IMG/VR virus record: IMGVR_UViG_3300037041_001145
Span: 1-33,755 of that record
Direction: 5' to 3' (one strand)
DNA from: a virus
Length of the DNA: 33,755 nt
Shown here: positions 17,491-33,151 of the stretch, piece by piece
How the letters are laid out: the number at the start of each line of letters is the position of its first letter
How positions within the stretch are numbered: the stretch's first letter is position 1
Notes under the pieces: model-generated
The model's database searches: none
What the model was told of the DNA's origin: nothing
The model's input: only the letters and a program-made list of their open reading frames with translations
Made by a program: the position numbers and the translations under genes

Positions 17491-20232
17491 CTAGTCATTC
17501 TTTGATTTATTATCAAATCTATTTTTATTCTCTCTTGCTATCTGTAATTGACTATCAGCTATTTCTTTTTGTGCTTGAATCTTCTCACGTTCTATTTGAG
17601 TTTTCTGCATTGCTAAGCTATTTCTGTTAGTCTCTTTCATCCTTTCCATATCAGTTTGATCTTGATATTGTTCTGATTCTCTTATATCTTTCATCTGATC
17701 CATAAAGTCAGACTGTTGATTTTCATTAAGGTCAGCAGTTGCACCATAACCTGATGCACGGATCTCAGCAACAAGTAAATCACGTTGTCTATTCTTTTCA
17801 GCTTCAGTTGCTTCATAATCTCTTTTAAGTCTTTCTTCTTCTGATTTAGCTTGAATCATTTGTTCTTGCATTTGCTGTTGCTGTTGTTGCTCTTGTTGTT
17901 TAATTTGATTAGTCTTCTCTTCTGAAGCTTTAAGAACTGAATTAAGCTCTGCAACAGAATCAGACTGAACAACTCTTCCTAAATCATATATAGAAGCTCC
18001 AGTAGTATTATTTTGTAATGCCATAGATTTTAATTGCTCAAGTATTGCTCTATGATTAGCAGTAGTGGAAGCATAAATATTAAGATCTCTCATTAATAAA
18101 TCTGTACCATTAATTTCAAAATTAACTTTTTCATCTGCAGTAGTCATGTATTGTAATCTTACTGAAGGTTTAGTAGAATGATAATACTGCGCTAAGTCTG
18201 TACGCATCTGGTGTACTCTTGGCATTAAATAATCACAGTGTTGTATAAAGAAAATTTCTGTTTGTGCATATGATGCAGATACTGCTTGCTCAACTCCAGT
18301 AGCTGTAGTTTGAGATAACTGTTGTCCCATACGTTGTGGATTTACACCAATTACTTCATAAGCCTGTTGTTTAAAGTAATTAGCTAACTGTATTCTTGAC
18401 ATAAGTCTGTTAGTCTGTTCTAGATCTAATTTTTGAAAATGCTGAAAGTTTAATGCATTTTCTGTATTAGTAATAGAGGTATCTAATGGAAGCATTTGGA
18501 AATTTTTCATTGCTACATAAGCTTTAGCAAGATTGTTCTTACCCCAGTCTTCACCCATTGAGTGTCTTGGTAATGCATTCTGATCTAATAAGATAACTGT
18601 ACCTAATTCATCTACTAGTATATCTGCTATTTGATTATTAACAATATTATATCCAATTTGATAGGGTTTCATTAAATCTAATAATGCAGTTGATTTAGTA
18701 TTTCTATCAGAAAAAACTGAACCTTCTACTGGTAACTTACATCCATAAAGTGTACTATCTCCTTTGAATTGGAATTTTAATGGTCCTAATTGATTCTTAT
18801 CTGCACCAATATAAATAGGTGTAAAGCCTCCAGGATTATTCATACCCCAGAATGATGGTATGTTTGGTCCAATTTTAATTCCACCCCAAGTTTCATTAAT
18901 CCAAATCCAATCTATATGTTCTCCATATACTATGTTATCTTTTGTTTTATTCTTAAAGAGTCTAGTATCATAAATGGGTTTATCACTAACTTTATAATCT
19001 TCTGTTATAATTTCTACTAGTACTTCACCATTATCTAATACTTTAGTAAGATGCCCAACTTTACGTTGTGATTTCCAATATCCGGTAGTTACTCTTAATA
19101 AGTATGCAGTACCTGCCACATTATAATCTTCTCCTTCTGCTAAAATTTGTGATACAACATCTCCACCTTGCATAACTGATCCTGCCATCATTGATGTATA
19201 TTGACGGTATGCTAATGAAGGCATGTTAGTATTCCATTCATGAGTTTTAGTTGCATCATAGTAGGATCCGTCATTTTGCTGTCCACCAATATTATATCCA
19301 GCAGATCTAATTGGGTATATAGCTTCTAATGCTTCAAGTTGTTCTTCAGTCATCAGATATCCATACTTATCAATAACATCTGCTACTGTAAACATATCTG
19401 TTTTTCCTACCCAGTTTGCTTGAGAAATATATCTTACATCCGGTGATTTATGATAGAATGTAAGAACAGGGTTCCATAATTCTACTTCATAATCATCTTC
19501 TGCCATTCTAAAATGCCAGTACTCACGGTCAGTAATAAGCATATCTCTAAATGCTCTTTCCTCAAGTTCATCTATTCTAAATCTTTCTACATCTACTTTA
19601 TGTTGATGTGTAGCCCATTGCTCAACTAATGATCTGTAATCTTTTTTAAAGTACATTTCAATTTCTGGTAATGTCTTAAGTTTTTCTGGACTTAACTGTT
19701 GTTGGGCTTCTTCAGAATTTGGATCTAAACCTTGTTCAAGCATTGCTGCAGTAATTTTCATTTGTGCATCAGACATAAGAACTTCTTCTACTGCTGCACG
19801 TTTTTGTTCCATCATCTCATTATATGAGAACTCATCAACTGCTCTATATGTAAGTTTAGTAGATCTCTTAGCAAACTCTGCTACAAGAACATTAATTACA
19901 TTAGGTATGATAGGATAGAATTTAAGTTCTAGTGCTGAGTTATCTTCTTTTGTAAGTACTTCTACTATATCCCGGTACTCATTATCCTCTTCAATGATAT
20001 AATCTGATTTATCAATAATACCTTTAGCAAGTTTATAGTTTTTCATTAACCTGCGCGCATTCATCCTAATCTGTTTTAGACCATTCCATTCTAACCAGTC
20101 TAGATTCCAGGCTGCCCATTCTTGGTCCTTTTCACTTTTTGGAATAAATTGAAGAGGTTGGGTGATACTACCCATCCTATTGTGTTTTACTTTAGCTCCT
20201 TTCTTGAGCTGCATAGCATTATATACCTGCAT
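17491..20232 (-). CDS. Portal protein, crAss-like
   Basis: 913 residues. The N-terminus (MQVYNAMQLKKGAKVKHNRM, then SEKDQEWAAWNLDWLEWNG) and the order terminase-portal-scaffold-capsid mark it as the crAss-like portal, the dodecameric ring at one vertex through which DNA passes. Residues about 90-210 hold the PIIPNVINVLVAEFAKRSTK region and a helical insert. The last 150 residues form a long charged helix beginning with a glutamine run (QQEQQQQQQMQEQ), an extended C-terminal coil likely to project into the capsid. The stop is TAG, in use as a normal stop. It starts 5 bases past the terminase stop. Confidence 0.92.
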   Translation of the reverse strand: MQVYNAMQLKKGAKVKHNRMGSITQPLQFIPKSEKDQEWAAWNLDWLEWNGLKQIRMNARRLMKNYKLAKGIIDKSDYIIEEDNEYRDIVEVLTKEDNSALELKFYPIIPNVINVLVAEFAKRSTKLTYRAVDEFSYNEMMEQKRAAVEEVLMSDAQMKITAAMLEQGLDPNSEEAQQQLSPEKLKTLPEIEMYFKKDYRSLVEQWATHQHKVDVERFRIDELEERAFRDMLITDREYWHFRMAEDDYEVELWNPVLTFYHKSPDVRYISQANWVGKTDMFTVADVIDKYGYLMTEEQLEALEAIYPIRSAGYNIGGQQNDGSYYDATKTHEWNTNMPSLAYRQYTSMMAGSVMQGGDVVSQILAEGEDYNVAGTAYLLRVTTGYWKSQRKVGHLTKVLDNGEVLVEIITEDYKVSDKPIYDTRLFKNKTKDNIVYGEHIDWIWINETWGGIKIGPNIPSFWGMNNPGGFTPIYIGADKNQLGPLKFQFKGDSTLYGCKLPVEGSVFSDRNTKSTALLDLMKPYQIGYNIVNNQIADILVDELGTVILLDQNALPRHSMGEDWGKNNLAKAYVAMKNFQMLPLDTSITNTENALNFQHFQKLDLEQTNRLMSRIQLANYFKQQAYEVIGVNPQRMGQQLSQTTATGVEQAVSASYAQTEIFFIQHCDYLMPRVHQMRTDLAQYYHSTKPSVRLQYMTTADEKVNFEINGTDLLMRDLNIYASTTANHRAILEQLKSMALQNNTTGASIYDLGRVVQSDSVAELNSVLKASEEKTNQIKQQEQQQQQQMQEQMIQAKSEEERLKRDYEATEAEKNRQRDLLVAEIRASGYGATADLNENQQSDFMDQMKDIRESEQYQDQTDMERMKETNRNSLAMQKTQIEREKIQAQKEIADSQLQIARENKNRFDNKSKND

Positions 20233-30476: not shown

Positions 30477-30596
30477 TTATTTTATTATTGCTAATGCTTC
30501 AACTATTAATTTCATATCTGGAAGACTATAAATGCCTTTTATTGTAGCAGCATTTATAGCTTCCTCTATTATTTTTGTTGCTTCTTCTTTATTCAT
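30477..30596 (-). CDS. 39-residue helical protein between fibre genes
   Basis: ATG at 30594-30596, TAA at 30477-30479. Two predicted helices: NKEEATKIIEEAINAATIKG and a second from SLPDMKLIVEALAIIK. The start overlaps the preceding fibre stop as TAATG, and the next gene starts three bases after its stop, so both ends fit the operon. Very short helical proteins of this kind beside fibre genes are something I recall from phages of Bacteroidota. It could be a fibre chaperone; function unknown. Confidence 0.65.
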   Translation of the reverse strand: MNKEEATKIIEEAINAATIKGIYSLPDMKLIVEALAIIK

Positions 30597-31864
30597 TATA
30601 CAAGTAAGATTTTTTGTGCAACACCATTGATAACTACATCCCATACTTTACTACTTGTATTTACTGCAAGTGTTACTACTCCAGCATTTGTACCAGTTGA
30701 ACCTACTACAAATTGATTACTTCCAGTTGCTACAGCATTTGCACCTAAAATAACTGAACCATTAAAGTTACCTGTTTGAGCTGAAAGACCAACAATAGTA
30801 TTAAGAAAACCACTTGTATTAGCACTTGCTGCAGAAGTACCTATAGCTGTATTACCTAATCCAGTTGTACTTTGTAAGGCATTATATCCAATAGCTGTAT
30901 TATTTATACCTGCTGTATTAACAGATAATGCACTTCTTCCAATAGCTGTATTACTAAATCCAGTAGAGTTATTTCCTAATGCACCAGATCCCATTGCTGT
31001 ATTGTTACTACCAGTTGTATTAATAGCTAATGTAGAAGATCCTACAGCTGTGTTATTACTACTTGTATTAAACAGTAATGCTTGTGAACCAATAGCTGTA
31101 TTATTATTACCTGTAGAAGTATTACTTAATGATTGATAACCTACTGCAGTATTATCGTTACCTAGTTGTATAACATTTCCTGCTGCATATCCAACTGTTG
31201 TATTATGGTTTCCTGTTACATTATTACTTAATGCAAAAGTTCCCATTGCTGTATTAGTAGTATCAGTTGTTTTTCCTGAATGATTAAAATAACTCAGTGT
31301 TTCATCATATATAAATCTTGGATCACCTTCAACAGTAACACCATTACTATATAATACTTGAATAGCAGAACCAATATTTGCTAATGTTACACCTGTATTA
31401 ATTAAATTAGGACCAGCTATACCTTGAGGTCCTGTACCACCATTAACACCAGGAGAACCTTGTGAAGCAAGTAATGCCCAGTTAGTTGGATCTAAATCTG
31501 GAGTAGTTACTGATGGTCCTACTGGATTAATACAAAACCAAGAAGCTCCTCCAAAACCTACAGCATCATCTATTACATATGTACCTAACGCTGACCAAGC
31601 ACCTTGCCAGTTTAAACCTGCTGGACCTACTGGACCTGCAACACCTTGCAAACCTGTAGCTCCTGTTGGACCTTGTGGACCTTGTGGGCCTTGAGGACCT
31701 GCTGGCATTTGTGCTGCCAAGTCATCTACTGATATAGCACCTGCTAAATAATCATCTCCTCTGCGGTTATCTTTTAAACCTACTGGGATTAATGTTTGTG
31801 AAGGGTTAACTGAAGTAACTACACGTCCTCCTTTAATCCAACTTATGAAATTTAAAATATCCAT
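30596..31864 (-). CDS. Long tail fibre: anchor, collagen-like, CBM-like and YadA-like repeats
   Basis: 422 residues from the ATG at 31862-31864; a longer reading from 31954 runs into the terminator and is rejected. In order: a MDILNF...RRGDDY...VDDL anchor (1-45), about ten Gly-x-y collagen-like triplets (around 48-80), a CBM5/12-like patch (NWQGAWSALGTYVIDDAV and TNWALL), a shorter Gly-x-y stretch, and about ten copies of an NTA(I/V/M)G..AL unit spaced by about 20 residues, as in YadA-type heads of trimeric adhesins. Trimeric assembly and a carbohydrate target are inferred. The gene opens the fibre transcript after a terminator. Confidence 0.75.
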   Translation of the reverse strand: MDILNFISWIKGGRVVTSVNPSQTLIPVGLKDNRRGDDYLAGAISVDDLAAQMPAGPQGPQGPQGPTGATGLQGVAGPVGPAGLNWQGAWSALGTYVIDDAVGFGGASWFCINPVGPSVTTPDLDPTNWALLASQGSPGVNGGTGPQGIAGPNLINTGVTLANIGSAIQVLYSNGVTVEGDPRFIYDETLSYFNHSGKTTDTTNTAMGTFALSNNVTGNHNTTVGYAAGNVIQLGNDNTAVGYQSLSNTSTGNNNTAIGSQALLFNTSSNNTAVGSSTLAINTTGSNNTAMGSGALGNNSTGFSNTAIGRSALSVNTAGINNTAIGYNALQSTTGLGNTAIGTSAASANTSGFLNTIVGLSAQTGNFNGSVILGANAVATGSNQFVVGSTGTNAGVVTLAVNTSSKVWDVVINGVAQKILLV

Positions 31865-31917
31865 GATTGTTACATAATTAGTTATATCATTAATATACAA
31901 AAAATTTATGTAAAAAC

Positions 31918-31949
31918 AAAATTCCTGATAAATTAATACCAGGAATTTT
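31918..31949 (-). terminator. Terminator after the GroES-like gene
   Basis: AAAATTCCTG pairs perfectly with CAGGAATTTT around a 12-base loop; the minus strand continues TTTTGTTTTT. It separates the small accessory operon from the fibre operon, about 50 bases downstream of the GroES-like stop. Confidence 0.85.
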
Positions 31950-31998
31950 CTCACCTAAGTTATAACAAAAATTTTAACGTAATGTAAATATAGTAATA

Positions 31999-32295
31999 TT
32001 ACCAAATGATAGCTACATCACCTTCATTTAATACTAATCTTACAGTACCATCAATATCTATTTTTTCAGAATGCTCTAATGATGAGTAAGGAATATAAAC
32101 CATATCTCCTTCTTTTACTTCTTCACATTTTTCTCCTATTGCAAATACTCTTAACTTTAACCAAGCTTTCATTGCTTCATACATGATAGCATCTTCATCT
32201 TTTTCTGTTAATTTAATTGCTGATTCTTTTTTTACAGGAACTTCAATAATAATTCTTCTTCCTCTTAATACTTTAAACGGGTGATTCATCTTCAT
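31999..32295 (-). CDS. GroES-like co-chaperonin
   Basis: 98 residues. After KVLRGRRIIIEVPVKKES comes a flexible region (residues about 25-50) in place of the mobile loop, then RVFAIGEKCEEVKEGDMVYI and KIDIDGTVRLVLNEGDVAII, which follow the end of GroES (...VLAVG...VKVGDKV..., then EY..LRESDILA). The closing acidic-Asp-hydrophobic pattern is well kept. Phage co-chaperonins such as T4 gp31 replace GroES to fold the capsid protein in host GroEL. A Met at residue 3 could also start it; either start overlaps the upstream gene. No GroEL is encoded here. The mobile-loop sequence is not obvious. Confidence 0.65.
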   Translation of the reverse strand: MKMNHPFKVLRGRRIIIEVPVKKESAIKLTEKDEDAIMYEAMKAWLKLRVFAIGEKCEEVKEGDMVYIPYSSLEHSEKIDIDGTVRLVLNEGDVAIIW

Positions 32296-32554
32296 AATGT
32301 TTTAATGTTAATACTTTTACTACTGCCATTTGTGCATTTACTATCTCGCCTACTGCGTGATCAAATAAAAGACTTTTAAGTGGATGCTTAGATTCACTTG
32401 TATAATTTTTTTTCATTATCTCTGCAACTTCAGCAAACAATAGCTTTACTTTACTTACATCTGTATCAGGTTCTACTCTATTATCAATCCCGATTAACTG
32501 TTCTCCAAAACAAGGTACTCTTGTTTCTTTAATTATCATTTGTTCTTCTTCCAT
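32273..32554 (-). CDS. Putative Acb2/Tad1-like cyclic-nucleotide sponge (anti-CBASS/anti-Thoeris)
   Basis: 93 residues. The part from IGIDNRVEPDTDVSKVKLLF through AEVAEIMKKNYTS to LLFDHAVGEIVNAQMAVVKVLT follows the pattern of the Acb2/Tad1 hairpin domain as I remember it: an N-terminal strand, V..IK...A.LI helix, then A...I..AQM..VK..T helix. Such proteins bind cyclic di- and trinucleotides or cADPR and stop CBASS or Thoeris defence. The gene sits in the small accessory operon, where counter-defence genes are common. A Met at residue 6 is an alternative start. This is a pattern match by eye, not a search; the alternative is an unknown small helical protein. Confidence 0.5.
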   Translation of the reverse strand: MEEEQMIIKETRVPCFGEQLIGIDNRVEPDTDVSKVKLLFAEVAEIMKKNYTSESKHPLKSLLFDHAVGEIVNAQMAVVKVLTLKHYEDESPV

Positions 32555-32559
32555 CTGGT

Positions 32560-32814
32560 TTAATTTATTTGGTCATACGTAAGTAAAAAGATATCAGGCT
32601 TACACGCATAAAACTCATCTTTAATACCTTTAATAATATAGTCTCCTATTGTTGCTGTCATGGGACCTTCTAGAGTACTTACTGCAAGTACTACCATTTT
32701 GTTTCTTTCATAACTAAAACAGCTTGGGGAAAATGCTAAGATCTCATTTAAATTAGTACCGACCCATTGTAAGGCTTCAATCTCAATGGGTTTTTTTACA
32801 TATCTATGTATCAT
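32560..32814 (-). CDS. PGDYG-like small phage protein
   Basis: 84 residues. The first part (RYVKKPIEIEALQWVGTN) and the last part (TATIGDYIIKGIKDEFYACK and PDIFLLTYD) are the typical ends of a very common phage protein of unknown function: ...KKPV.IEA.QW...N...TLEG.M.A..GD.IIKGV.GE.Y.CKPDIF...Y. It may bind nucleic acid or a host protein, but no role has been established that I know of. The start overlaps the upstream stop as ATGA. Confidence 0.85.
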   Translation of the reverse strand: MIHRYVKKPIEIEALQWVGTNLNEILAFSPSCFSYERNKMVVLAVSTLEGPMTATIGDYIIKGIKDEFYACKPDIFLLTYDQIN

Positions 32815-32993
32815 GCGTCATACTTTTTAACATCAAGATTTTCTACTTCATTATCTGAGTTAAGTAGATTATACTTGATTTGTTCTAAGATTCCAATGAC
32901 GGCCATCTTACCAGTCTCACCTGAATTTATTTCTACTTCTAATCCGCCACTTTCATGTAGGGATACTTTAATAAGTACTTTTGACTTTATCAT
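32811..32993 (-). CDS. 60-residue hypothetical protein, first gene of accessory operon
   Basis: 60 residues from the ATG at 32991-32993 (MIKSKVLIKVSLHESGGLEV). A longer reading from 33095 would start inside the terminator stem at 33061-33092 and is rejected. Beta-strand start then a helix (GKMAVIGILEQIKYNLLN) and acidic tail. A TATATTTG box lies 17 bases upstream. The TGA stop overlaps the next ATG. Unrecognised. Confidence 0.6.
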   Translation of the reverse strand: MIKSKVLIKVSLHESGGLEVEINSGETGKMAVIGILEQIKYNLLNSDNEVENLDVKKYDA

Positions 32994-33009
32994 ATTAATT
33001 TGGTTTTTA

Positions 33010-33017
33010 CAAATATA
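33010..33017 (-). promoter_or_regulatory. Candidate -7 box for the accessory operon
   Basis: Minus strand TATATTTG, an exact TAnnTTTG match, 17 bases before the ATG at 32993 and just past a terminator. A TTTG box at 19-21 bases upstream is missing (AGGT is there), so the call rests on the -7 box and position. Confidence 0.5.
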
Positions 33018-33058
33018 ATAAATTATTTTTTCCTGAACCTTATACAGAGACTTTAAAT

Positions 33059-33092
33059 AAAAAAAGGTCCTCAGTTTCCCAAAGACCTTTTT
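33059..33092 (-). terminator. Terminator upstream of the accessory operon
   Basis: AAAAAGGTC (33061-33069) pairs with GACCTTTTT (33084-33092); on the minus strand the stem ends in seven Ts. The plus strand also has a short T run, so it may work in both directions. It closes either the transcript of the two small genes upstream or the candidate small RNA. Confidence 0.85.
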
Positions 33093-33151
33093 CAAAACAA
33101 ATCAAAATAATGTAAAACATGTCAACCCAAAAGCAGAAAGAGGAGACATGT
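33059..33151 (-). ncRNA. Candidate small RNA with 5' hairpin and terminator
   Basis: Between the promoter-like boxes at 33152-33182 and the terminator at 33059-33092 lies a non-coding unit of about 90 bases. Its 5' end would fold with ACATGTC (33145-33151) against GACATGT (33117-33123) around a 21-base U/C-rich loop, then a single-stranded AU-rich linker, then the terminator stem. A promoter, two hairpins and no open reading frame are the marks of a small RNA. It could instead be only the 3' end of the upstream transcript. Confidence 0.4.

Follow-up and report, generated by a model that had tools for sequence, protein, structure and literature searches.

The window analysed here, a viral stretch of 33,755 nucleotides (IMG/VR record IMGVR_UViG_3300037041_001145), carries near its end a co-directional block of genes for proteins of 63 and 46 residues, for the protein at 32811-33095, for a phrog_419 protein, for a small helical-hairpin protein, for a GroES-like protein and for a collagen-like tail-fibre protein. 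The features of this block that are relevant for the present study are as follows:

32560..32814, minus strand: 84-aa phrog_419 protein (E 2e-26), function not assigned, next gene upstream of the hairpin gene; present in 54 of 80 family loci
32273..32554, minus strand: 93-aa probable Acb2/Tad1-hairpin superfamily protein and candidate nucleotide sponge (open frame, 126 relatives, reciprocal profile link to a PF24729 branch, AlphaFold2 hairpin, dN/dS)
32396..32461, minus strand: predicted first long helix, residues 32-53, including K37 (equivalent to K23 of T4 Acb2; 57 of 58 sequences); AlphaFold2 pLDDT 93-96
32306..32383, minus strand: predicted second long helix, residues 58-83, including A67, A74 and K80 (the last equivalent to R79; each in 58 of 58 sequences); AlphaFold2 pLDDT 96-97
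31999..32295, minus strand: GroES-like protein (phrog_3188, E 2e-5), next gene downstream, overlapping the candidate sponge frame by 23 bases

The hairpin gene starts with ATG and stays open for 93 codons up to its stop, and the plus strand across the same interval is full of stops; the 93-residue protein of the preliminary description thus exists, though it is encoded on the minus strand. Relatives are encoded in at least 126 viral stretches of IMG/VR, and since pairwise dN/dS values among them (about 0.05-0.35) are well below 1, the frame is selected as a protein and is real and under purifying selection. The two-helix pattern from which the resemblance to Acb2 and Tad1 was originally proposed can be read as D32-V33-x-x-V36-K37...A44-E45-I46 followed by A67...I71-x-x-A74-Q75-M76-x-x-V79-K80-x-x-T83, and it goes beyond chance: among 58 distinct sequences from the 126 relatives, A67, A74, M76, K80 and T83 are invariant and K37 occurs in 57. 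The N-terminus, as had been pointed out, is unlike that of known Acb2 proteins, with FG-x(4)-G and a variable loop in place of GY-x-x-(L/H)-(S/T).

Most of the portal protein (17491-20232) can be aligned with portals of crAss-like phages (E 1e-18 to 1e-69); a phage record obtained from a Leptolyngbya culture ranks first (34%), ahead of gut crAss-like and Cellulophaga phages. For the major capsid protein, the matches are those of Cellulophaga phi17:2 and of CrAssE-Sib, which is by its description an epsilon crAss-like phage (PMC11054128). Judged by these sequence matches, "crAss-like-related" is a fair label, and to this extent the initial assignment to a crAss-like phage is backed; the gut Bacteroidota host proposed with it is not borne out, as the closest portal comes from the Leptolyngbya culture, ahead of the gut crAss-like and Cellulophaga phages. 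In 14 of 17 records carrying the hairpin family or a neighbour of it, on contigs of up to 122 kb, the portal is 76-100% identical to that of the window, so that these records form one lineage. Two further observations concern the window itself: the tail-fibre protein (30596-31954) has a collagen-like stretch and, after it, repeats of the NTAVG/NTAIG type that are reminiscent of adhesin head repeats, and the GC-rich contig end (33540-33755) is without a clear gene or a credible Rfam match.

The 93-residue protein alone has no match in Pfam, PHROGs, PADLOC, NCBIfam or the PDB sequences. It does not reach the curated cut-off of 27 bits of the Pfam model PF24729 (Acb2_Tad1_hairpin), which matched only one of 32 family members (E 0.11) and gave sub-threshold matches only against 22 family records; such weak matches were given no weight, as the model also matches weakly in ten of 14 control genomes. 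A PDB profile search with the family returned chance matches only, and a scan of genome contigs with the family query revealed no relative. A connection emerged through intermediates. With two more conservative family members (L080 and L063) as tblastn queries, Pasteurella phage Pmp11 was matched at E 1e-6, with further matches to DSL-LC05, Aaphi23, Providencia PS3 (6e-4) and EcP1 (1e-2) and a weak one to Flavobacterium FCL-2 (E 0.3). The Pmp11, LC05, EcP1 and FCL-2 proteins pass the PF24729 cut-off; those of PS3 and Aaphi23 are under it. The EcP1 protein matches phrog_717 (E 6e-10), the PHROG that Jenson et al. (PMC10097602) give for Vs.4 homologues; T4 Vs.4 itself matches it at E 2e-32. Reciprocal profiles of the window family and the EcP1 branch each recover the other's loci, all 80 of them (E 1e-14 to 1e-3), hhalign links the two with a probability of 98.4% (E 8e-14), and over about 70 residues both have the pattern FG-x(4)-G...V-x-x-x-K...A-x-x-E-x-x-x-A-Q-M-x-x-V-K-x-x-T in common. 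Compared directly by hhalign, the window family and Acb2 proper give no significant alignment, and the EcP1 branch reaches 49.6% against Acb2 proper. Membership in the Acb2/Tad1 superfamily, as initially suggested, is thus upheld at the level of homology through an intermediate family (tblastn bridge, profiles, hhalign and the EcP1-phrog_717 match), whereas a direct match of the protein itself is absent; this sequence-based chain is sound but long. In the papers searched, we found no biochemical test of the EcP1 branch and no mention of PF24729.

AlphaFold2 predicts a short helix (residues 16-21) and two long helices (32-53 and 58-83) with an overall pLDDT of 84-86 that rises above 90 in most of the hairpin; two alignments agree, the deeper one (58 sequences) giving the same fold. 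The model has the topology of Acb2, i.e. a short helix and a two-helix hairpin, the latter as the preliminary description had anticipated from the pattern, and contains the antiparallel pair of long helices typical of PF24729. In the viral structure library BFVD, ranks 1-3 stand clearly apart with probabilities of 0.99-1.00, and two of the three are annotated as Acb2/Tad1 hairpin. The PDB fold search was less specific: with the first model, T4 Vs.4 (7UQ2; Z 5.8, 63 residues, 4.0 A) was level with unrelated helical hairpins and Tad1 (Z 4.6) scored no higher than these, both lying mid-rank with no E value below 0.001, and with the second model the Vs.4 and Tad1 chains were absent from the listing. 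These PDB scores, together with the missing direct database match, would fit the idea that a generic two-helix protein resembles Acb2 by chance, but the recovery of all 80 EcP1-branch loci by reciprocal profiles, the hhalign probability and the common pattern of about 70 residues make such a coincidence highly improbable and nearly exclude it. Homology and a common fold with the Acb2/Tad1 hairpin superfamily are, in our view, very probable, and the 93-aa protein is, judging from its sequence relationships, most likely a divergent member of this superfamily.

Several residues important for Acb2 function have been defined in T4 Vs.4, where Y8, F82, H11, K23 and R79 contact cGAMP and the hexamer relies on L29, A66, A73 and A77, mutations of A66 and A73 abolishing both hexamer and binding (PMC10097602). 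In the 103 Acb2 sequences compared, Y8 is present in all and K23, M75 and R79 are almost invariant. When the 58 distinct sequences of the window family were aligned to Acb2 using the A-x-M motif as anchor, A67 (A66), A74 (A73), M76 (M75) and K80 (R79) were each found in 58 of 58 and K37 (K23) in 57, so that the basic cGAMP-contacting positions K23/R79 are kept. The small positions of the hexamer interface are likewise kept as the invariant A67 and A74, the equivalent of A77 being V78 (V/L in some Acb2 proteins too). The stacking tyrosine Y8 is not retained; its place is probably taken by N25 here and by F/P/E/I elsewhere in the family, with the alignment of this loop being uncertain. T68, whose exchange to methionine lowers binding in a T4-like Acb2 (PMC12657230), corresponds to Gly69. 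The absence of F82 says little, as this position is Ala in most Acb2 proteins. D65, H66, G69 and E70 are new and invariant in the window family, E70 being common to the EcP1 branch; the very conserved second-helix stretch KSLLFDHAVGEI of the family finds no explanation in the Acb2 model.

The gene neighbourhood bears on whether this fold has been put to another use. A GroES-like gene, for which no Pfam match was obtained, follows downstream in 79 of the 80 family loci, at a distance of 150 nt or less from the sponge frame in 75. A homologue with the sponge fold might serve as a repurposed hairpin oligomer, e.g. a head/tail assembly adaptor or a partner of the GroES-like protein, and this near-constant adjacency, the nearby tail-fibre genes, the frequent position of EcP1-branch relatives next to terminase, portal or lysis genes, the lost stacking tyrosine and the extremely conserved DHAVGE motif, which is unlike Acb2, would all fit such a job. 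However, the synteny is largely shared descent, given the portals 76-100% identical to that of the window in 14 of 17 records, and GroES-like genes also occur where the hairpin gene is cleanly missing and hence are no obligate partner. In addition, the family has retained both the lysines at ligand-contacting positions and the alanines of the interface. We therefore regard a role of this kind as unlikely. Eight loci with a GroES-like gene and flanking sequence lack the hairpin gene; at the four junctions read, the GroES-like gene follows the phrog_419 gene after fewer than about 20 bases, and an 87-kb record without the gene at this site carries no copy elsewhere. An accessory counter-defence gene would be expected to come and go at one fixed position in this way, although this does not prove such a role. 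The synteny had suggested that the hairpin protein might work together with the GroES-like protein; this idea is weakened by the portal identities, which place the records in a single lineage, and by the other records that lack the hairpin gene at this position.

Some further features of these loci may be recorded. The GroES-like gene is very divergent but conserved across the lineage. At two loci (L212:1-456 and L213:3-716), the place of the phrog_419 and hairpin genes upstream of the GroES-like gene is taken by a gene whose product resembles an FkbM-type methyltransferase. One contig (L041:2757-3050 and L041:3292-3645) encodes two hairpin proteins of different branches close to each other, which would fit the retention of two ligand specificities. 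An N-terminal module of about 30 residues (MTxxQxxxWxKLTxExxxNxxARxxxD), absent from the window, precedes at least three unrelated proteins of the gene cluster, namely 56 sponge frames (L009, L011, L015 etc.), three GroES-like proteins (e.g. L074:1860-2327 and L075:4131-4598) and 13 others, the 32811-type protein among them (L063:7387-7701 and L064:1276-1611); it resembles a shuffled leader or targeting peptide.

For the hairpin protein itself, we favour an oligomeric helical sponge for a cyclic nucleotide or a related signal, with a changed ligand preference, which we consider rather probable; oligomer formation, ligand binding and the counter-defence role are inferred by analogy to Acb2. According to this proposal, protomers consisting of the short N-terminal helix and the antiparallel helix pair would assemble via A67 and A74 of the second helix as in T4 Vs.4, the invariant K37 and K80 would grip the phosphates of the ligand, a cyclic oligonucleotide or related cyclic signal, at the protomer interfaces, and binding without cleavage would lower the free signal so that CBASS-type signalling defence does not fire. 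With the stacking tyrosine lost and Gly69 in place of T68, a ligand other than that of T4 Acb2 is probable. Counted within the probability of the sponge proposal is the narrower, tentative case that the signal is not a CBASS dinucleotide, but a cyclic trinucleotide, a gcADPR-type Thoeris signal or a Bacteroidota-specific signal; the loss of the dinucleotide-stacking tyrosine with retention of general phosphate-holding lysines is consistent with it, as is the binding of trinucleotides or gcADPR by related Tad1 and Acb2 sponges, whereas the Gly in place of T68 speaks against it, as does the trinucleotide site, no residue of which could be mapped. Quite improbable, in our estimate, is a separate, crAss-like-related class of hairpin sponges without the stacking tyrosine that captures a signal taken by no known Acb2/Tad1 protein via the invariant D65/H66/E70 face. 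If binding holds true, a branch of at least 126 sequences missed by current libraries would join the nucleotide-sponge superfamily in Crassvirales-related phages, the fold could lose its hallmark stacking residue and yet work, and the hosts would be predicted to use nucleotide-signalling defence. If the protein does not bind, the name alone would not justify an anti-CBASS annotation for the large FNPS branch called Acb2/Tad1 hairpin by Pfam.

The closest known relatives are the small phage proteins of the EcP1 gp26 type (PF24729, uncharacterised FNPS branch), which belong to the same length class, are 21-36% identical to the window family over the whole length and have in common with it the start FG-x(4)-G-(x)-F-N-P-S and the second-helix motif A-x-x-E-x-x-x-A-Q-M-x-x-V-K-x-(I/L)-T. 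The window family differs from this branch by KSLLFDHAVGEI in place of (K)RLASIAITEAQ, by a position that varies where FNPS has its phenylalanine, and by the lack of a C-terminal Trp. Tad1 of a Clostridium botulinum prophage (PDB 7UAV) aligns with the model by its C-terminal helix pair (Z 4.6, 49 residues, 3.4 A), but its N-terminal antiparallel beta-sheet has no counterpart, both AlphaFold2 models containing zero strands; in related sponges of the Tad1 and Acb2 types, trinucleotides or gcADPR occupy separate sites (PMC12043709). With Acb2 (T4 Vs.4, PDB 7UQ2; Pseudomonas phage p26, PDB 8H2J), the window protein has in common the short helix and long helix pair, the lysines K37/K80 at the positions of K23/R79, and A66, A73 and M75, whereas Y8 and T68 are lacking and the N-terminus is longer and different. 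The protein should thus be filed neither as Acb2, since Y8 is not retained, nor by score as a member of PF24729, but as a divergent homologue with a plausibly similar mode of action.
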